Source of the DNA: Methylibium sp. Root1272
Lineage (GTDB): Bacteria > Pseudomonadota > Gammaproteobacteria > Burkholderiales > Burkholderiaceae_C
Reading direction: 5' to 3'
NCBI RefSeq assembly: GCF_001425905.1
Contig: NZ_LMDY01000012.1
Coordinates: 497,734 to 561,733, forward strand
Length of the DNA: 64,000 nucleotides
In this document: positions 7,780-53,503 of the stretch, piece by piece
Position numbering within the stretch: the stretch's first letter is position 1
Layout: each line of letters opens with the position of its first letter
Notes under the pieces: model-generated
Seen by the model: the letters and a program-made list of their open reading frames with translations, nothing else
The model's database searches: none
Told to the model about the DNA's origin: nothing
Position numbers and translations under genes: made by a program

Positions 7780-8517
7780 ATGACGCTGTTCTCCACGATG
7801 TCGTTCACGACCCTGCTGTCGCTGCTGCCGTGGGCCGACTGGGCCGCGGTGGGCTGGTTCTTCTCGGCGTGGTCAGGGTATGCCACCTTCGCGCGCCGCC
7901 GCGCGGCCACGCACGCCTCCATCCTCGGTGCCACCAACCGCATCCGGCGCCAGTGGATGCTGCAGACCACGCACCGCGAGGTGCGGGTGGTCGACGGCGT
8001 GGTGGTGCAGAACCTGTCGACCAGCCCGAGCTTCTTCGCGTCGACCACCATCCTCATCATCGGCGGCCTGCTGGCCTTGCTGGGCACCTCGGACCGCGCG
8101 ACCGAGCTGGTGCAGGAGCTGCCGTTCGCCACACGCACCACTGCGCTGGTGTTCGACCTGAAGCTGCTGCTGCTGACGGCAGTGTTCGTCTACGCCTTCT
8201 TCCGCTTCACCTGGAGCCTGCGGCAGTACACCTTCGGCGCGCTGCTGGTCGCGTCGGCCCCCGAGGCCAAGGCCTACGACGCGCTCGGCGAGGTCGGGCA
8301 GGCACAGCGTGAGGCCTTCGCCGACCGCGCCGGGCGCGTGGTGGGCATGGCGGCAGAAACGTTCAACGACGGGCTGCGGGCCTACTACTTCGCGTTCGCG
8401 GCGATCGCCTGGTTCTTCTCGCCGCTGGCGTTTGCATTGGCGACGGCCGGCGTGGTCTACATCCTCTACCAGCGCGAGTTCCGCTCCGAGGTGCTGGCGG
8501 TGCTGCGCGGCGACTGA
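7780..8517 (+). CDS. DUF599 family membrane protein
   Basis: A 245-residue inner-membrane protein with about four hydrophobic segments: near residues 15-35, 85-105, 128-148 and 205-230. The conserved features of DUF599 are visible, such as the central RQWMLQTT and the ETFNDGLRAYYF region before the last membrane span. The function of the family is not known. The ATG at 7780 was chosen over a GTG two codons upstream. It stands alone, with the ABC operon converging on it from the other strand 13 bp away. Confidence 0.75.
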   Translation: MTLFSTMSFTTLLSLLPWADWAAVGWFFSAWSGYATFARRRAATHASILGATNRIRRQWMLQTTHREVRVVDGVVVQNLSTSPSFFASTTILIIGGLLALLGTSDRATELVQELPFATRTTALVFDLKLLLLTAVFVYAFFRFTWSLRQYTFGALLVASAPEAKAYDALGEVGQAQREAFADRAGRVVGMAAETFNDGLRAYYFAFAAIAWFFSPLAFALATAGVVYILYQREFRSEVLAVLRGD

Positions 8518-43356: not shown

Positions 43357-44151
43357 GTGGATCTTCAACTGACAGGCAAGCTGGCTCTCGTCTCCGGCAG
43401 CACGGCCGGTATCGGCTTCTCGATCGCCCAGGCCCTGGCGCGCGAAGGCGCGCGCGTGATCGTGAACGGACGCACCGAAGCGGCCGTCGAACACGCCGTC
43501 GCGCAACTGCGCTCGGCATCGGGGTCCACCGCCGCCGAAGGCTTTGCCGGCGACCTGAGCACGGCCGAAGCGGCCGAGGACCTTGCGCGGCGCTTCCCGG
43601 ATGTGGAGATCCTCGTCAACAACCTCGGCATCTTCGAGCCCAAACCCTTCGAGGAAATCCCCGACGCGGACTGGCTGCGCTTCTTCGATGTCAACGTGCT
43701 CAGCGGTGTGCGCCTCGCGCGGCTTTACCTGCCAGCCATGCGGCGGCGCAACTGGGGTCGCGTGATCTTCATCTCGAGCGAGAGCGCGCTGCAGATCCCG
43801 GCCGAGATGATCCACTACGGCATGACCAAGACCGCGCAGCTGGCGGTGTCGAGAGGCCTCGCGGAGGCCGTGGCCGGCACGGGTATCACCGTCAACAGCG
43901 TGCTGCCCGGTCCGACGCGTTCGCGCGGTGTCGGCGACTTCGTCGATGCGCTGGCCAAGGCCGAAGGCAAGTCGGCCGAGGCCGTGGAGCAAGAGTTCTT
44001 CCTGAAGATGCGGCCCAGCTCCTTGATCCGGCGCTTTGCCAGCACCGAGGAAGTGGCTTCGCTGGTGGCCTATGTCGCCAGCCCGCTCGCGTCTGCCACC
44101 ACCGGTGCAGCGCTGCGGGTGGACGGGGGCGTGCTCAGGTCTGCGGTCTGA
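43357..44151 (+). CDS. Short-chain dehydrogenase/reductase
   Basis: A 264-residue classical SDR. The cofactor loop is SGSTAGIGFSIAQAL near residue 14, NNLGIF matches the NNAG motif, Ser is in ISSESA, and the catalytic YxxxK is in HYGMTKTA. The Arg in NGRTEA after the second strand suggests NADPH use. The start is a GTG at 43357 with AAGAAAG upstream; the longer open frame before it lacks family character. The substrate is unknown. Confidence 0.82.
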   Translation: MDLQLTGKLALVSGSTAGIGFSIAQALAREGARVIVNGRTEAAVEHAVAQLRSASGSTAAEGFAGDLSTAEAAEDLARRFPDVEILVNNLGIFEPKPFEEIPDADWLRFFDVNVLSGVRLARLYLPAMRRRNWGRVIFISSESALQIPAEMIHYGMTKTAQLAVSRGLAEAVAGTGITVNSVLPGPTRSRGVGDFVDALAKAEGKSAEAVEQEFFLKMRPSSLIRRFASTEEVASLVAYVASPLASATTGAALRVDGGVLRSAV

Positions 44152-44221
44152 TGCGACAGTGGCGATGCCGCCCGAGAGCGGGCGCCGCCGGTGAGTCCGT
44201 GATGCGCGCGAAAATGAGTGC

Positions 44222-46053: not shown

Positions 46054-48345
46054 TCAGGGCTTGACGCGTGCGACGCGCAGCACCGACGGCGAGCGCTTCA
46101 GCGCCCGCAGGGTGTCGGCCAGGTGCAACCGGTCGCGCACGGCGAGCAGCAGGCGCAACTCGGTCGTCTCGGTGGCGCGCTCGTCGCCCATGTCGATATG
46201 CACGATGTCGGCCTCGGCGCCGCTCACCGCGGTGGCGATTTGCGCCAGCACGCCCTTGCCGTTGTTGACCAGCACCGTCACCGCCGTCTCGAAGTTGCGC
46301 TGCGGTGCCTCGGACCACTCGACCGTGATCCACGGCTCGCTGTCGCGGCCGAACAGCCGCTTGGCGGTGCTGCACTCGCCGGTGTGCACCATCAGACCCT
46401 CGCCGCGCCCCAGGTATCCGACGATCGAGTCGCCGGGCACGGGCCGGCAGCATTCGGCCAACTGCACCGTTGCGCCTTCGCTGCCGTCGATCACCACAGT
46501 GCCCTGCGAGGGCGTGCCCTCGTCGGCGCCGTAGCGGCCCATCGTCAGCGTCAGCGCATCGGGCCGCGCGCCGCGCTCGGCCAGCAGGGCGGCCATGCGC
46601 TTGGCGACGATGGTCGGGATCTTCTTGCCCAGGCCGATCTCGGTCAGCAGCTCGTCGCGCTTCCTGGTGCCGCTCCAGCGCAGCAGGGCCTGCCACAGCG
46701 CACCGTCGGTGCCGGCCGAGGTCTCGTCACCGGCGGGCAGCGCCAGGCCTTCGGCGCGGATCGCCTGCGCCAGCAGTTTCTGGCCGAGCTGCAGCGACTC
46801 CTCGACCTCCATGTTCTTCAGATAGTGCCGGATGCGCGAGCGTGCGCGGCCGGTGCGCACGAAGTTCAGCCAGGCCGGGTTGGGGCGGGCGCCCGGCGCG
46901 GTGACGATCTCGATCGCGTCGCCGCTGCGCAGCGCGGTGCGCAGCGGCGCAGGTTCGCCGTTGATCTTGGCGGCGATACAGTGGTCGCCGACGTCGCTGT
47001 GGATCGCGTAGGCGAAATCCACCGGCGTGGCGCCCTTGGGCAGCGCCAGGATCTTGCTCTTCGGCGTGAAGACGTAGACCGAGTCGGGGAACAGGTCGAT
47101 CTTGACGTGCTCCAGGAACTCGGCCGAGTCGCGCGTCTCGTCCTGGATGTCGAGCAGCGACTGCAGCCACATCGCACCGATGTTCTGGGCGTCGGCGCTG
47201 CCGCGGGTCTTGTACATCCAGTGCGCAGCGATGCCTTTCTCCGCCACCATGTGCATCGGCGCGGTGCGGATCTGGAACTCGACAGAGGTGCCGAGCGGGC
47301 TGACCAGCGTGGTGTGCAGCGACTGGTAGCCGTTGGCCTTCGGGATCGCGATGTAGTCCTTGAAGCGGCCCGGCACCGGCTTGTAGAGCTGGTGCAGCAC
47401 GCCCAGCGCGAGGTAGCACTCGGGCAGCGTGTTGACGACGATGCGGAACCCGAAGATGTCGCTGACCTGGGCGAAGCTCAGGCGCTTCTCGTCCATCTTG
47501 TTGTAGATCGAGAAGATCGTCTTCTCACGGCCCGACACCTGCACCGCGAGCTTGGCTTCCTTGAAGGCCTTCTCGACATCGCGCTGCACGCGCTCGACGA
47601 TGTCGCGCCGGTTGCCCCGCGCGCGCAGCACCGCCTTGCTGAGCGCGGCATGGCGCCACGGGCGCAGCTGCTGGAACGACAGTTCCTGCAGCTGCCGGTA
47701 GGTCTCGTTCAGGCCCAGCCGGTGCGCGATCGGCGCGTAGATCTCGATGGTCTCGCGCGCGATGCGTTCGCGCTTGACCGGCAGCATTGCGTCGATCGTG
47801 CGCATGTTGTGCAGCCGGTCGGCCAGCTTGACGAGGATCACGCGCACGTCGCGCGCCATTGCCAGCAGCATCTTGCGGAAGCTCTCGGCCTGCGACTCCT
47901 CGCGGGTGCTGAACTGCAGCTTGTCGAGCTTGGTGAGGCCGTCGACGAGGTCGGCCGTCGGCGCGCCGAAGCGCTCGATCAGCTCGGCCTTGCCGATGCC
48001 GCAGTCTTCCATCGCGTCGTGCATCAGCGCGGCCATGATGGCCTGCGCGTCGAGCTTCCAGTCGGCACACAGGCCGGCGACCGCGATCGGGTGCGTGATG
48101 TAGGGCTCGCCGCTGGCGCGGAACTGGCCCAGGTGGGCCTCGTCGGCGAACTTGTAGGCCTCGCGCACACGCTTGATGTCGGCCGCGTCGAGGTAAGACA
48201 GCTTGTGCGTCAGCGCGGCGAACGACGCGGCCTCGGCGTCGCTGGTGGCCGCATCCTGCTCGGCCACGGCGTTGCCGCCGAGCATGAACGACGGCAACGC
48301 CTGGCTCAGCTTTTTGCGGACGGCAAGAACGGCACGCGAGGGCAT
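46054..48345 (-). CDS. spoT: Bifunctional (p)ppGpp synthetase/hydrolase SpoT
   Basis: A 763-residue RelA/SpoT protein. The HD hydrolase domain (about 50-200) is intact with LMHDAMED and KLADRLHNMRT; the synthetase domain (about 245-370) has GRFKDYIAIPKANGYQSLHT. TGS (about 415-475, DSVYVFTPKSKILALPKG) and a C-terminal ACT domain (about 680-760) follow. Both catalytic centres look complete, so it should make and degrade the stringent-response alarmone. rpoZ normally sits next to spoT; here they are separated by a persulfide module. Confidence 0.93.
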   Translation of the reverse strand: MPSRAVLAVRKKLSQALPSFMLGGNAVAEQDAATSDAEAASFAALTHKLSYLDAADIKRVREAYKFADEAHLGQFRASGEPYITHPIAVAGLCADWKLDAQAIMAALMHDAMEDCGIGKAELIERFGAPTADLVDGLTKLDKLQFSTREESQAESFRKMLLAMARDVRVILVKLADRLHNMRTIDAMLPVKRERIARETIEIYAPIAHRLGLNETYRQLQELSFQQLRPWRHAALSKAVLRARGNRRDIVERVQRDVEKAFKEAKLAVQVSGREKTIFSIYNKMDEKRLSFAQVSDIFGFRIVVNTLPECYLALGVLHQLYKPVPGRFKDYIAIPKANGYQSLHTTLVSPLGTSVEFQIRTAPMHMVAEKGIAAHWMYKTRGSADAQNIGAMWLQSLLDIQDETRDSAEFLEHVKIDLFPDSVYVFTPKSKILALPKGATPVDFAYAIHSDVGDHCIAAKINGEPAPLRTALRSGDAIEIVTAPGARPNPAWLNFVRTGRARSRIRHYLKNMEVEESLQLGQKLLAQAIRAEGLALPAGDETSAGTDGALWQALLRWSGTRKRDELLTEIGLGKKIPTIVAKRMAALLAERGARPDALTLTMGRYGADEGTPSQGTVVIDGSEGATVQLAECCRPVPGDSIVGYLGRGEGLMVHTGECSTAKRLFGRDSEPWITVEWSEAPQRNFETAVTVLVNNGKGVLAQIATAVSGAEADIVHIDMGDERATETTELRLLLAVRDRLHLADTLRALKRSPSVLRVARVKP

Positions 48346-48424
48346 GGGCTCATGGTAGCGCGGTCACCGAGAGGACCCTCGTCGAACGCGAAACGACCCT
48401 GTCGACGGTCGGAGGCAGGGCTAA

Positions 48425-49324
48425 TCAGCGCGTGTTCGGATCGCGCTCGTGCTTCGTCGCCAGCACGTTGAGCGGAATCTTCAGGTAGCTGACACCATCG
48501 TCTTCCGCCGGCGGGAGCCGCCCGGCGCGCACGTTGACCTGCAGTGACGGCAGGATCAGCGTGGGCACCTCGAGTTGCGCGTCCCGGGCCATGCGCATGG
48601 CCACGAACTCGCTCTCGCCGATGCCATCGTGGACATGGATGTTGCGGGCCCGCTGATCCGCGACCGTTGTCTCCCACCGCGGTGGGCGGTTCGGCGGCGG
48701 GTAGTCGTGGCAGACGTACATCACCGTTTCCGGCGGCAGATCGAGCAGGCGGCGCATGGAGCGATACAGCTGGTGCGCATCGCCGCCCGGGAAATCGGCT
48801 CGGGCGCTGCCCACGTCGGGCATGAACAGCGTGTCGCCCACGAACACGGTGCCGTCGACGAGGTAGGCCATGTCGGCGGGCGTGTGACCGGGCACGAGCA
48901 GGGCGGTCGCTTCGACGCCACCGATCCTGAAGGTCTCGCCGTCCTTGAACAGGTGGTCGAACTGGCTGCCGTCGGGGAGAAAGGCGCGCTCGAGGTTGTA
49001 GATCTTCTTGAAGACGGCCTGCACCGCGCGGATGTTCTCGCCGATCGCGATGCGTCCGCCGATGCGCCCTTGCAGATAGCGCGCCGCCGACAGGTGGTCC
49101 GCGTGGGCGTGGGTTTCCAGGATCCAGTCGACCTGCAACTGCTCGTCGGACAGGCAGGCCAGCAACGCGTCGGCTGACGTGGTGCTGGTGCGGCCCGACT
49201 TGAAGTCGAAATCCAGCACCGGATCGATCACCGCAGCCCGGCGGGTCGCGCGGTCCCAGACGACATAGGACACCGTTCCGGTCTGGGGGTCGTAGAAGGC
49301 GCGGGTCGTCGTTCGCGTGCTCAT
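48425..49324 (-). CDS. MBL-fold persulfide dioxygenase-type protein
   Basis: A 299-residue metallo-beta-lactamase-fold protein of the Blh/ETHE1-like group. The metal motif is THAHADHLSA near residue 60; further ligands are in VPGHTPADM, VGDTLFMPD and VCHDYPP. In other bacteria the relative encoded beside BigR oxidises persulfides of glutathione. The ATG at 49324 is preferred over a TTG ten codons upstream that falls in the operator region. It diverges from the ArsR-type gene and shares an AT-rich control region with it. Confidence 0.83.
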   Translation of the reverse strand: MSTRTTTRAFYDPQTGTVSYVVWDRATRRAAVIDPVLDFDFKSGRTSTTSADALLACLSDEQLQVDWILETHAHADHLSAARYLQGRIGGRIAIGENIRAVQAVFKKIYNLERAFLPDGSQFDHLFKDGETFRIGGVEATALLVPGHTPADMAYLVDGTVFVGDTLFMPDVGSARADFPGGDAHQLYRSMRRLLDLPPETVMYVCHDYPPPNRPPRWETTVADQRARNIHVHDGIGESEFVAMRMARDAQLEVPTLILPSLQVNVRAGRLPPAEDDGVSYLKIPLNVLATKHERDPNTR

Positions 49325-49352
49325 CGGCGGGCTTGGCTCCGGCAGATCAAAC

Positions 49353-49393
49353 AATCTGTCTATTTATAGTATATTTATTTATATATTGATAGC
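49353..49393. promoter_or_regulatory. AT-rich control region between dioxygenase and ArsR/BigR gene
   Basis: About 40 bp of nearly pure A and T in otherwise high-GC DNA. It contains CTAT-TT-ATAG (49360-49369) and TATAT-TTATTT-ATATA (49370-49385), both inverted repeats. The position between divergent genes of a BigR-type system suggests operator plus -10 elements for both directions. Confidence 0.6.
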
Positions 49394-49418
49394 AAGTCGA
49401 AGTTCTGGAATCGCTTCT

Positions 49419-49739
49419 ATGAAGTCCCCACCCACCGCCATCGACCCGGCCGCGCTGCGAGGCGCCGCAGTGCGGGCCGTCGGCGCCCTCAAGCTGTTGG
49501 CGAACGAAGACCGCCTGCTGCTGCTGTGTCAGCTGTCGCAGGGTGAGCGCTGCGTCAGCGAACTCGAGGCGCAGCTGGAGATCCGCCAGCCGACGCTGTC
49601 GCAGCAACTCGGCATCTTGCGCGCCGAGGGCGTGGTCGCCACGCGCCGGCAGGGTAAGAACATCTACTACAGCGTCGCGGATCCCGCGATGCTCGAGATC
49701 CTGGCGGTGCTCTACCGCCTCTACTGTCCCGAGGAGTGA
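49419..49739 (+). CDS. ArsR-family persulfide sensor (BigR/SqrR-like)
   Basis: A 106-residue winged-helix repressor. The DNA-binding helix lies in LEIRQPTLSQQLGILRAEGVV. Two cysteines stand in the places of the BigR/SqrR redox pair: Cys in GERCVSELEAQL and Cys in RLYCPEE at the end; oxidation to a di- or tetrasulfide lifts repression in the known members. The ATG follows an AT-rich region. Neighbours (persulfide dioxygenase and YeeE transporter halves) match the sulfide-response regulon. Confidence 0.83.
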   Translation: MKSPPTAIDPAALRGAAVRAVGALKLLANEDRLLLLCQLSQGERCVSELEAQLEIRQPTLSQQLGILRAEGVVATRRQGKNIYYSVADPAMLEILAVLYRLYCPEE

Positions 49740-49742
49740 GCG

Positions 49743-50177
49743 GTGGTCATCGACTGGAATGCATTCACTCCGTGGTCCGCGCTCGCTGGCGGCCTGTTGA
49801 TCGGCCTGGCGGCGGCGATGTTCGCGCTGCTGAATGGCCGGATCGCCGGCATCAGCGGTGTCGTCGGTGGCTTGGTCCGGCCGGTCTGGGGCGACGCGGC
49901 ATGGCGGGTTGCCTTTGTCGCGGGCCTGATCGGTGCACCGCTCGTCTACCTGCTGTTCGCAGCGCTGCCGACGCCACAGATCGACGCGGGCTTCGGCACG
50001 CTCGTCGTGGCGGGTCTGTTGGTGGGCGCCGGCAGCCGCTACGGCGCGGGCTGTACCAGCGGACACGGCATCTGCGGTCTGTCGCGACTGTCGCCGCGGT
50101 CGCTCGTCGCGACGGCGATGTTCATGGGGGCGGGCTTCGTCACCGTGTTCGCGGCGCGCCACGTGTTCGGCTTCTGA
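49743..50177 (+). CDS. YeeE/YedE family transporter, first half
   Basis: A 144-residue inner-membrane protein with about four spans. The conserved motif [19 protein letters not shown] near residue 100 holds the Cys that passes sulfur species in YeeE-type thiosulfate transporters. The GTG start lies 3 bp after the ArsR gene. The next gene encodes the matching second half, so the two probably form one unit. Confidence 0.82.
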
Positions 50178-50188
50178 GGAACATCACC

Positions 50189-50626
50189 ATGCTGATCTTC
50201 ACGTCCCTGCTTGCCGGCCTGGTGTTTGGCCTGGGCCTGATCGTCTCCGGCATGGCGAATCCGGCCAAGGTGATCGGCTTCCTGAATCTTGCCGGACCGT
50301 GGGATCCGTCGCTGGCCTTCGTGATGGCCGGAGCGATCGCCGTCGGCGCGGTCGCGTTCTTCGTCGCGCGCCGCCGCAGCGTGTCGCTGCTGGGGGCCGC
50401 CATGAAGTTGCCGACCGCTCGCGATATCGATCGCCGGTTGGTGCTGGGCAGCCTCGTGTTCGGCGTCGGTTGGGGTCTTGCCGGGTTCTGCCCGGGCCCC
50501 GGGCTGGTGGCTCTGGGGATGGGCGAATTCAAGGCGATGGTCTTCGTGGCCGCGATGCTGGTCGGCATGGGTGCGTTCGAACTGCTCGAGCGGCGCCGGC
50601 GGGTCGCCGTTCCGGGCGCTGCCTGA
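50189..50626 (+). CDS. YeeE/YedE family transporter, second half
   Basis: A 145-residue membrane protein with about four spans and the conserved SGMANPAKVIGFLNLAGPWD near residue 20 and WGLAGFCPGPGLVALG near residue 102, whose Cys is the partner of the first-half motif. It starts 11 bp after the first half. It ends at a strong terminator shared with rpoZ from the other side. Confidence 0.82.
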   Translation: MLIFTSLLAGLVFGLGLIVSGMANPAKVIGFLNLAGPWDPSLAFVMAGAIAVGAVAFFVARRRSVSLLGAAMKLPTARDIDRRLVLGSLVFGVGWGLAGFCPGPGLVALGMGEFKAMVFVAAMLVGMGAFELLERRRRVAVPGAA

Positions 50627-50668
50627 GCGGATGCTGCCGACCGTTGGATGTGCCCCGCCACAATGACG

Positions 50669-50692
50669 ACGGCCCGCCGAGGCGGGCCGTTT
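50669..50692. terminator. Terminator between YeeE genes and rpoZ
   Basis: A 10-bp stem ACGGCCCGCC (50669-50678) with GGCGGGCCGT (50681-50690) and a GA turn, followed by TTT on the plus strand. It lies between convergent transcripts and ends the persulfide module. Confidence 0.75.
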
Positions 50693-50711
50693 ACTAGATG
50701 GCGCGGTGGTT

Positions 50712-50915
50712 TTAGACCGGCACCTTGCGCAGCATCTCCAGGCCCACGTGGCCTTCGGCGATCTCGCGCAGCGCGGTCACACCGGGCTTGTTCTTGCTCT
50801 CGACCTTGGGCGCATGACCCTGGCTCAACATGCGGGCCCGGTAGGTGGCCGCCAGCACGAGTTGAAAGCGGTTGGGGATCTTGGTCAGGCAGTCTTCGAC
50901 GGTGATGCGGGCCAT
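50712..50915 (-). CDS. rpoZ: RNA polymerase omega subunit
   Basis: A 67-residue omega subunit. [19 protein letters not shown] and [15 protein letters not shown] are the family signature. It helps assemble RNA polymerase and takes part in ppGpp binding. The gene follows gmk by 32 bp on the same strand, as usual. spoT, the usual next gene, is displaced by about 2.4 kb. Confidence 0.94.
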
Positions 50916-50947
50916 GGACGGTGCTCCGGGGACGGGGGTGAAGAGGG

Positions 50948-51568
50948 TCAGTCCAGGTGCAGAGCCCGGAACACGGCCGCCTTGCTGCGGCGCAGACGTG
51001 AGTATTTTAGCCGCTGCGCGTGCACGATGGCCTTTAGGTCGAACAAAGCCGTCTCGAACACTGCATTGATGACCACGTAGTCGAAGTGCTGCGCCTGGGC
51101 CACTTCGAGCCGGGCGTTGGCCATCCGGGTCTCGATGACCGGCGGCGGATCCTCGCCGCGGCGTTGCAGGCGCTGGAGCAGTTCGTCCCAGCTCGGCGGC
51201 AGGATGAAGATCAGCACGGCGTTCGGGAACAGCCGTTTGATCTGCAGCGCCCCCTGCCAGTCGATCTCCAGCACGACGTCCTCGCCGTCCTGCAGCCGCT
51301 GCTCGATCGCGATGCGCGACGTGCCGTACAGGTTGCCGTGCACCTCTGCCCACTCGAAGAACGCACCCTCCATGACCATGTCGCGGAACGTCGGCTCTTC
51401 GATGAAGTGGTACTCGCGGCCCTCGACCTCCTGGCCGCGCGGCGGCCGTGTGGTGTGTGAGATCGACACCGCGAGGTGCGAATCCAGTTCGAGCAGCGCC
51501 TTGACCAGGCTCGACTTGCCGGCCCCACTGGGGGCCGCAACGACGAAGAGGTTGCCGGGAGTGTCCAT
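50948..51568 (-). CDS. gmk: Guanylate kinase
   Basis: A 206-residue kinase that makes GDP from GMP. The P-loop is [10 protein letters not shown] at residues 12-21; [19 protein letters not shown] is the GMP-binding region, and [13 protein letters not shown] follows. It lies between yicC and rpoZ, all on the minus strand, with 14 bp to yicC. Confidence 0.95.
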
Positions 51569-51582
51569 CGGGTGTCAGGGCC

Positions 51583-52506
51583 TCATTCGATGTTCTGGAC
51601 CTGCTCGCGCATCTGCTCGATCGCGACCTTCATCTCGACGGAAATCTGCGTCAGCTCCAGTGCGGCCGATTTCGAGCCCAGCGTGTTGGCCTCGCGTTGC
51701 AGCTCCTGGATCAGGAAGTCCAGCCGCTTGCCGAGCTCACCGCCGGCCTTCAGCAGGCGCTCGATCTCGTCGAGGTGGGCGCCGAGTCGCGCCAGTTCTT
51801 CGGCCACGTCGATCCGGATCGCGTAGGCGGCGGCTTCGGTCAGCGCGCGTTCCTGCAGCGCCTGCTGCGGAAGGGTCTGCGCGGCACCGCTGGACGCCAA
51901 GGCTTCCTGCCAGCGCTCCAGGAAGCGTTGCTGCTGGCGCTGCACGACCTGTGGCACCAGTGGCTGTGCGTCGCTGGCCAGCTGTCGCAGGCGGTGGACG
52001 CGCTGCATCAGCACCACGACGAGCTTTTCTCCCTCGCGAGCCCGCGCCTCGACCAGCCCCGTCACCGCGCGCCGGGCGGTGTCGAGCGCTGCCTCGTCGA
52101 GCCGCACCGCAGGGGCCGCACCGCGGCACCACTGCAGCACCTCGTGCACCGTCAGCGGCGGGGCCTTCGGCAGCCACGATTGCACGGTGCTCTCCAGGCG
52201 CGAGAGCGTGTGCAGTTGATCGGTCTGCGGCTGGGGCCAGGCGGTGCTGGCGTCGTCTCGCGTTGCAAGCCTCAGCTCGATCTTGCCGCGCCGCAACTGG
52301 CCGGTGATCAGCTCGCGCAATGCAGGTTCCAGCGCGCGCATTTCGTCGGGCATGCGAAATGCGATGTCGAGGAAACGGCTGTTGACCGAACGCAGATCCA
52401 CCACCACCCCGGCGGACGGACCGTGCCCGCTCTCGCTGGCGTTTTCCCCTGTGGCGGAGGTCCCGGTCGATGCGCTTGCATAACCGGTCATGCTGTAAAC
52501 TGCCAT
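51583..52506 (-). CDS. yicC: YicC family endoribonuclease
   Basis: A 307-residue protein. The start [13 protein letters not shown], the central [19 protein letters not shown] and the C-terminal [19 protein letters not shown] are the YicC signature. Recent work on the family shows RNA-cleaving activity; the role in the cell is not settled. The ATG at 52506 fits the family start. The kinase gene on the other strand begins 28 bp away. Confidence 0.92.
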
Positions 52507-52534
52507 CGAACTTATCGCATTGCAAAATCCGATT

Positions 52535-53503
52535 ATGTCAAAGCTGAAACCCGCGCCACTGCCTGCGGGCACCGTGGTCGGGGGTTACCAGGTCATCAAG
52601 AAGTTGGCGGCCGGCGGCTTTGGTGTCGTCTATCTCTGCGAAGACAGCGAGCGGCGGCTGATCGCGCTGAAGGAATACCTGCCGGCCTCGCTGGCCGAAC
52701 GCTCGGTGGGTGAACTCACGCCCCGCGTCAAGCCCGAGAAGCAGCCGCTGTACCGCCTGGGTCTGAAGAGCTTCTTCGAGGAAGGCCGCTCGCTCGCGCA
52801 GATCAGTCACCCGAGCGTCGTCTCGGTGCTCAATTTCTTTCGCGAGAACGAGACCGTCTACATGGTGATGAACTACCTGCAGGGCGACACCCTGCAGGAC
52901 TTCATCGTCACGGCACGCGACCTGAAGCGCGACAAGGTTTTCAGGGAATCGACGATTCGTTCACTGTTCGACGAGATCCTCCGTGGACTGCGCATCGTGC
53001 ATCAGCACAAGATGCTGCACTTGGACATCAAACCGGCGAACATCTTCATCACGAACGACAACAAGGCGGTCATGCTCGACTTCGGCGCGGCCCGCGAGGT
53101 GCTGTCGAAGGAAGGCAACTTCATTCGCCCGATGTACACGCCGGGCTTCGCGGCGCCGGAGATGTACCGGCGCGACGGCACGCTCGGTCCCTGGACCGAC
53201 ATCTATGCGATCGGCGCGTGCATCTACGCCTGCATGCAGGGCTATCCGCCGAACGACGCGCCGCAGCGCATCGAGAAGGACCGCCTCGGGCTGTCGCTGT
53301 CGCGACTGCGCAATGTGTACTCCGACAACTTGATCGAAGTCACCGAATGGTGCATGTCGCTCGATCCGCTGTCGCGCCCGCAGAGCGTGTTCGCGCTGCA
53401 GAAGGAACTTGCGCGCGAGACCGAGCGCCGCTACACCAAGCTCAGTTTCAGCGAGCGGCTGAAGTTGCAGCTCGAAAACATCAAGACCGGCGCGAAGGCG
53501 TGA
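52535..53503 (+). CDS. Serine/threonine protein kinase
   Basis: A 322-residue soluble protein kinase without a membrane span or sensor domain. The Gly loop is LAAGGFGVVYLCED, the catalytic Lys is in IALKEYLP, the catalytic loop is LHLDIKPANIF (Asp and Asn present), the metal loop is LDFGAAREV, and APEM closes the activation segment. The ATG at 52535 is used rather than a TTG five codons upstream. A PP2C phosphatase gene follows by 10 bp, so the pair forms a reversible phosphorylation switch. Targets are unknown. Confidence 0.85.
   Translation: MSKLKPAPLPAGTVVGGYQVIKKLAAGGFGVVYLCEDSERRLIALKEYLPASLAERSVGELTPRVKPEKQPLYRLGLKSFFEEGRSLAQISHPSVVSVLNFFRENETVYMVMNYLQGDTLQDFIVTARDLKRDKVFRESTIRSLFDEILRGLRIVHQHKMLHLDIKPANIFITNDNKAVMLDFGAAREVLSKEGNFIRPMYTPGFAAPEMYRRDGTLGPWTDIYAIGACIYACMQGYPPNDAPQRIEKDRLGLSLSRLRNVYSDNLIEVTEWCMSLDPLSRPQSVFALQKELARETERRYTKLSFSERLKLQLENIKTGAKA

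Follow-up and report, generated by a model that had tools for sequence, protein, structure and literature searches.

A predicted sulfane-sulfur detoxification block between rpoZ and spoT in Methylibium

Introduction

The DNA analysed here is a stretch of 64,000 nucleotides from Methylibium sp. Root1272 (contig NZ_LMDY01000012.1, positions 497,734 to 561,733), which is referred to below as the window. The interval between rpoZ and spoT holds four genes: a persulfide dioxygenase gene on the minus strand, a divergent sensor gene on the plus strand and, behind the sensor gene, two genes for half-size YeeE proteins. Their products apparently serve the sensing, import and oxidation of reactive sulfur. 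Among the genomes that could be judged, this block is found at rpoZ-spoT only in the window genome and in Methylibium petroleiphilum PM1 (G001), and this location is derived. The sulfane-sulfur block was probably placed in the gap as a unit in the common ancestor of these two, and relocation of a resident block is a likelier route than direct arrival from outside. Such gene sets are already known; what is unusual is the location, which one close relative has in common with the window genome. An initial annotation of the window had named a dioxygenase, a sensor with both cysteines and two YeeE halves between rpoZ and spoT, and all of these are present:

46054-48345, minus strand: spoT, flank of the insertion (TIGR00691, 717 bits; PF13328; PF04607)
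48425-49324, minus strand: persulfide dioxygenase, single-domain type II, ETHE1-like, 299 amino acids (PF00753, E 1.4e-20)
49419-49739, plus strand: SqrR/BigR-type sensor of the ArsR family, 106 amino acids, Cys37 and Cys103 (PF01022, E 7.7e-14)
49743-50177, plus strand: YeeE1, YedE1/PmpA-like half transporter, 144 amino acids, Cys104 (PF04143, model positions 175-308 of 310)
50189-50626, plus strand: YeeE2, YedE2/PmpB-like half transporter (DUF6691), 145 amino acids, Cys101 (PF20398, E 7.5e-62)
50712-50915, minus strand: rpoZ, flank of the insertion (TIGR00690; PF01192)

The rpoZ-spoT site in related genomes

The site was compared in two sets of genomes. The first consists of the named spoT loci, which are the best 80 of 319 related stretches, and none of these 80 matches any module gene in the stretch examined. 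Both rpoZ and spoT are visible in 73 of them, the other seven not being judgeable at the site, and the gap between the two genes measures 98-355 bp in 69 of the 73 and carries other inserts in four. The second set was drawn from 30 examined genomes, namely G002 and the genomes of the 30 best sensor loci except G101, which has the sensor only. After removal of the window's genome and PM1, 28 family genomes remained, partly overlapping the named set (L039/G003, L004/G002, L005/G005 and L051/G081 are apparently the same records). The site is judgeable in 27 of these 28; rpoZ adjoins spoT in 26, another insert occupies the site in one (G081), and the module is there in none. Both sets bear out the statement of the initial annotation that rpoZ normally adjoins spoT. 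The same gene order throughout the group, which it had named as a refutation, was not seen. The comparison with related genera confirms that the block entered the rpoZ-spoT gap as one unit.

The gap seems to tolerate insertions. The other inserts in the named set, found in L043, L051, L052 and L066, are 1.3-4.4 kb long. Judged by eye, they seem to comprise two paired peptidase genes, a glyoxalase-type gene accompanied by a TetR-type regulator, and genes of a TRAP transporter together with a LysR regulator.

Within Methylibium, the module is present in three of six genomes, i.e. the window genome, PM1 and G003. In the congener G003 it lies close to a cytochrome bd gene on contig C523, and the rpoZ-spoT site is empty. 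Empty sites are also found in G004 and G005, which have no sensor match at E<=1e-10. G002 likewise has no sensor match, and its contigs end at the rpoZ-spoT site.

The module across the family

The four-gene block occurs commonly in this family, at other loci. A search of 299 genomes sampled from the larger family gave sensor relatives at E<=1e-25 in 82. The 30 best sensor loci of these 82 genomes were examined for gene order: 22 carry the complete set, arranged divergently as in the window, seven have the sensor and both yeeE genes, and one has the sensor alone. A gene for a DUF599 membrane protein lies 3' of yeeE2 in 11 of 20 other contexts (L163, L164, L166, L167, L169 and L180 among them), and a short DUF599 reading frame follows yeeE2 in G003. 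The window genome and PM1 contain one DUF599 gene each, about 40 kb (7846-8490 in the window) and about 180 kb from the module, respectively. Thus, the block at rpoZ-spoT lacks this fifth gene. A search for a common ancestral location of the module, in which only the nine neighbour genes of the G003 copy served as queries, matched nothing in the 20 other contexts except DUF599 and one weak CydB (31%, G109).

Properties of the four proteins

The dioxygenase has 299 amino acids when translated from its ATG; a 309-residue open reading frame that reaches 49354 starts at an upstream TTG. Among solved structures, 9g8t, 4ysk/4ysl and 4efz are the closest; they match over almost the full length (E 1e-101 to 1e-108) and are entries deposited as lactamase-domain proteins; we take 4ysk/4ysl to be a persulfide dioxygenase. 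As in single-domain persulfide dioxygenases, the metallo-beta-lactamase fold is combined with an HxHxDH motif and further H, D and H ligands. HAHADH at 72-77, H147, D164 and H206 are invariant in all 21 aligned module copies, and the histidines and aspartates among them presumably act as the ligands. The protein is not a member of the Blh family: it scores 389 bits against the Blh model, below the cut-off of 625, and the match is confined to the dioxygenase part, model positions 140-423 of 423, without reaching the N-terminal sulfur-transferase domain.

The sensor is a winged-helix protein of the ArsR family whose two conserved cysteines have the spacing known for SqrR and BigR. Cys37 and Cys103, 66 residues apart, are identical in 21 of 21 aligned module sensors and align with the cysteines of the closest solved chains, which are the 13ct/6o8l set, presumably SqrR, and BigR 3pqj. 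A score of 91.6 bits against the NCBIfam BigR equivalog model, below its cut-off of 155, speaks against equating the protein with BigR, and we therefore call it a SqrR/BigR-type sensor.

YeeE1 and YeeE2 correspond to opposite halves of the YeeE family and carry Cys104 and Cys101, respectively, each present in all 21 aligned module copies, as in the YedE1E2 and PmpAB pairs. YeeE2 additionally matches PF04143 at positions 24-103 of 310, below the cut-off of that model. A single broken gene was considered and rejected, because opposite halves are matched and each has its own cysteine, like the known pairs. A second, full-length YeeE-family transporter is encoded elsewhere in the genome (L001; G000:C14:207933-208913; E 5.5e-60).

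The GC content at third codon positions (GC3) is 0.86-0.89 in the module genes versus 0.88-0.94 in spoT, rpoZ and gmk, so the earlier remark that the module has the same codon style as its surroundings is a fair one.

Relocation or arrival from outside

For the way in which the block moved, we consider relocation within the lineage the more likely course. A tree of the four module proteins, built from 21 of the 22 four-gene loci (G061 was omitted for its partial dioxygenase match), gives the order ((window, PM1), G003), G112 with supports of 100, 80 and 68. The spoT tree of the same genomes has the same order around Methylibium, with supports of 100, 96 and 96. Because the two trees agree locally, relocation of a resident block fits the data as well as foreign arrival does; a foreign donor is compatible with the data but not required.

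Several observations weigh against relocation. For other parts of the family, the tree of the module proteins conflicts with that of spoT, and the module supports of 80 and 68 are modest. When sensor identity is taken by itself, G003 is further from the window than several other genera are. At fourfold sites, the window differs from PM1 at 120 of 390 positions in the module versus 273 of 1429 in eight flanking genes (Fisher p 1.5e-6), a higher divergence that could reflect weaker codon selection or a later exchange of the block. Neither border repeats nor a target-site duplication stood out among the 20 direct and 25 inverted pairs listed for 48340-50760, and no mechanism for the move was found. 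As to hallmarks of a mobile element, there is no recombinase gene among the four module genes.

Alternatively, the block could have come from another genus directly into the rpoZ-spoT gap of the ancestor of the window genome and PM1, in which case the copy in G003 would be a separate gain. We consider this possible, though not the favoured course of events. It would account for the patchy occurrence of the module in the family (82 of 299 genomes) and in the genus (three of six), for the varying module neighbours between genomes, for the conflict between the module and spoT trees in several other genera, and for the proximity of other genera to the window in the sensor alone. Since the trees differ elsewhere, transfer of the module between genera is indeed likely in general. 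For the window and PM1, however, the four-protein tree groups their copy with that of G003 and then G112, as spoT does, and the GC3 of the module fits the host, which both argue against such a direct arrival from another genus.

An ancestral rpoZ-module-spoT order with loss in other lineages is scarcely credible and was rejected: its sole support is that two genomes have the order in common, whereas separate losses would be needed in all judged relatives (73 of the named loci and 27 genomes of the family set, none with the module here) and G003 retains the block elsewhere.

Borders of the block

The block is flanked by a terminator stem on one side and a promoter-like core on the other, and both neighbouring genes are intact. 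The two borders are:

50668-50691, no strand assigned: terminator-type hairpin inherited from rpoZ, now common to rpoZ and yeeE2 (fold z, empty-site comparison)
48346-48424, minus strand: dioxygenase-spoT junction with no visible terminator; -10-like TACCAT directly 5' of the spoT ATG (terminator scan, folding)

On the rpoZ side, the hairpin folds much better than shuffled sequences (z -3.4 and -4.3), although the terminator scan did not call it a terminator. Where the site is empty, rpoZ is followed by a near-identical hairpin in G003/L039 and G004 and by a related one in G005, and the hairpin also lies beside rpoZ in PM1. A T run stands behind the hairpin in G003/L039. The window has lost this T run on the rpoZ strand; along the yeeE2 strand, only a short T stretch and a TTTACTAG-like sequence come after the stem. 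The initial annotation had given the module its own terminator. This was rejected, as the same hairpin adjoins rpoZ at empty sites and therefore belongs to rpoZ and not to the module.

On the spoT side, the dioxygenase gene is co-directional with spoT and ends 79 bp upstream of it. No minus-strand terminator-like site was detected in 48300-51000, the junction contains no run of four T and no unusual fold (z 0.64), and the order of the two genes is kept in PM1. With this arrangement, the block might place spoT under the persulfide-controlled promoter of the dioxygenase gene by read-through and thereby couple persulfide to guanosine tetra- and pentaphosphate ((p)ppGpp). Such a capture would be compatible with the relocation of a resident block, but we regard it as unlikely. 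The -10-like GCGCTACCATGA directly 5' of the spoT ATG is common to six sequences (window, PM1, G003, G004, G005 and L004), so that spoT probably has its own start, and Rho could halt read-through. We read GCGCTACCATGA as the probable core of a promoter belonging to spoT itself, whose leader would be very short. In a scan run without a control, 57 of the 73 rpoZ-spoT loci (L004-L083) showed a loosely defined -10-like pattern at a distance of 4-8 bases from an ATG, which hints at leaderless spoT mRNA in the family.

If read-through were true, a stress circuit would have been rewired by the landing place of the module. In the species pair of the window and PM1, SpoT would then be raised directly by sulfane-sulfur stress and (p)ppGpp would be tuned, which we likewise regard as unlikely. 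A limited literature search found no paper on a link between persulfide and (p)ppGpp or on the Methylibium locus.

The rpoZ-spoT placement is best described as a lineage-specific curiosity with one testable consequence, read-through into spoT. Given the empty congener sites and the copy at another place within the genus, it is a clean case of a detoxification block that stands between a terminator hairpin and a promoter-like core with neither neighbour broken. The parts are known, and the value of the case is modest.

Control region between dioxygenase and sensor genes

The intergenic region 49325-49418 (94 bp) has 39% GC versus 69% GC in the window. For lengths of 42, 50 and 75 bases, the most AT-rich piece of the whole window falls within it in each case. 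This agrees with the AT-rich control region of the initial annotation. Its suggestion that the block arrived as a unit stands with respect to the unit; AT-richness as a sign of recent foreign DNA was rejected, because the module intergenics are AT-rich, with the same promoter pair, across the family. The following elements were recognized:

49359-49395, no strand assigned: conserved control element with overlapping divergent promoters and a probable operator (37-bp motif, 22 family loci)
49368-49395, minus strand: predicted promoter toward the dioxygenase gene; -35 TTGCTA (49395-49390), 16 nucleotides, -10 TATACT (49373-49368); 9 of 12 matches
49359-49387, plus strand: predicted promoter toward the sensor operon; worn -35 TCTATT, 17 nucleotides, -10 TATATT; 7 of 12 matches

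The 37-bp motif holds 26.5 bits of information in 22 loci, compared with at most 9.4 bits in 20 shuffled sets, where a single selected site served as seed for the real run, which was also longer than the shuffled runs, and the shuffles preserved single-base content only. It was derived from 22 of 23 loci, G109 being omitted because its dioxygenase match is far away, and a fixed stretch was used for G195 and G246, which have no dioxygenase gene beside the sensor gene. The fit is uneven: G250, G075 and G160 score below 20 bits, G160 even below zero. The best copies read TTGACA-17-TATATT toward the sensor gene and TTGACA-16-TATAAT toward the dioxygenase gene. In PM1, the sensor-side promoter has the -35 box TTGATT and 9 of 12 matches.

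Within the element, two dyads are nested. The outer arms, which comprise the -35 boxes, are 64% complementary and the inner arms around the -10 boxes 68% over the 22 sites, values that none of 2000 column permutations reached; the arms were picked after the alignment had been viewed, and an earlier run covered 18 of the 22 sites, the final run all 22. Both -10 boxes lie within reach of this conserved dyad element, which overlaps them. For BigR, binding to the -10 region of the operon that it controls has been reported (PMC5823870), and 49359-49395 as candidate operator fits this report. The shared operator of the initial annotation was placed at 49353-49393; a shared AT-rich element does exist, but the conserved element is the one at 49359-49395. 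The two overlapping promoters probably cannot be occupied simultaneously.

Three points count against this assignment. The dioxygenase-side promoter is the only promoter-like site that a general scan of 48300-51000 reported; the sensor-side promoter, whose -35 box is worn in the window, was not found. Single sites are only weakly symmetric, and the dyad claim therefore holds at the family level. The pattern ATTC-N8-GAAT, quoted in PMC9774250 as the SqrR recognition pattern, is absent from 49200-49500 and from the family intergenics examined. The 37-bp element is accordingly a concrete, family-wide candidate for the operator, unlike the SqrR pattern quoted there. At up to three mismatches, no other copy of the element was found in the window's genome.

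Proposed working and comparison with known systems

Judged by the protein families and the cited relatives, from which sensor binding and the sulfur chemistry are deduced, the block could work as follows. At low persulfide, a reduced sensor dimer would occupy 49359-49395 and keep the two overlapping promoters closed. A rise in persulfide or polysulfide would link Cys37 to Cys103 and release the sensor, so that RNA polymerase could bind in either direction. Transcription in one direction would yield more sensor and the YedE1E2 pair, which would import zero-valent sulfur from outside as glutathione persulfide. Transcription in the other direction would yield the dioxygenase, which would oxidize glutathione persulfide to sulfite, from which thiosulfate would follow.

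A BigR-controlled yeeE-yedE-pdo2 operon is described for Acinetobacter baumannii, and the same source mentions an earlier report from Serratia (PMC7315123). Like the window block, this operon brings two YeeE/YedE genes and a persulfide dioxygenase gene under one BigR-type persulfide sensor, and the cysteines are 66 residues apart in both sensors (C34/C100 in A. baumannii BigR, C37/C103 in the window). In A. baumannii, transporters and dioxygenase are encoded in one operon according to that account, whereas in the window the dioxygenase gene is divergent from the sensor and transporter genes. The bigR operon of Xylella and Agrobacterium likewise has a two-cysteine BigR-type repressor with dioxygenase and transporter genes, and its repressor is reported to act on the -10 region (PMC5823870), which the window's candidate element also overlaps. 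It differs in that, as described there, Blh has an extra sulfur-transferase domain and the transporter is TauE-related.

For YedE1E2 of Cupriavidus pinatubonensis, import of zero-valent sulfur has been shown, with one essential cysteine in each protein, 104 and 101 (PMC10812762). The window pair resembles YedE1E2 and Serratia PmpAB in consisting of two half-size YeeE proteins, C- and N-terminal halves, with Cys104 and Cys101 (PMC10812762, PMC11582611). The C. pinatubonensis pair adjoins an ArsR/SmtB gene, and the available text of PMC10812762 names no dioxygenase gene beside it, whereas the window block has one.

The window element also resembles the bidirectional promoters described for Escherichia coli, in which pseudo-symmetric DNA allows two mutually blocking orientations of RNA polymerase, and it has the gene of an auto-repressor on one side, as in E. 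coli acrA/acrR (PMC12825309). In those promoters the -10 box is shared and starts are mostly 18 bp apart, 10 and 23 bp also being common, according to the same source. The window has two separate -10 boxes, each in the spacer of the other promoter, with predicted starts about 33 bp apart if 7 nucleotides from -10 to start are assumed, and the element is not of the shared -10 kind. By mutual blocking, the window pair may nevertheless work like that kind.

Wider context of the locus

From about position 44,000 to its end, the window is 84-97% identical to PM1. Window positions 1-44200 lack synteny with the 80 kb of PM1 that surround the locus, where only four short, weak matches (68-79%) occur. 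A rearrangement border or the edge of an island therefore lies near 44,200. PM1 (L101-L104) contains about 5.7 kb between gmk and the gene that matches window 51583-52572, and the window has no counterpart of this DNA.

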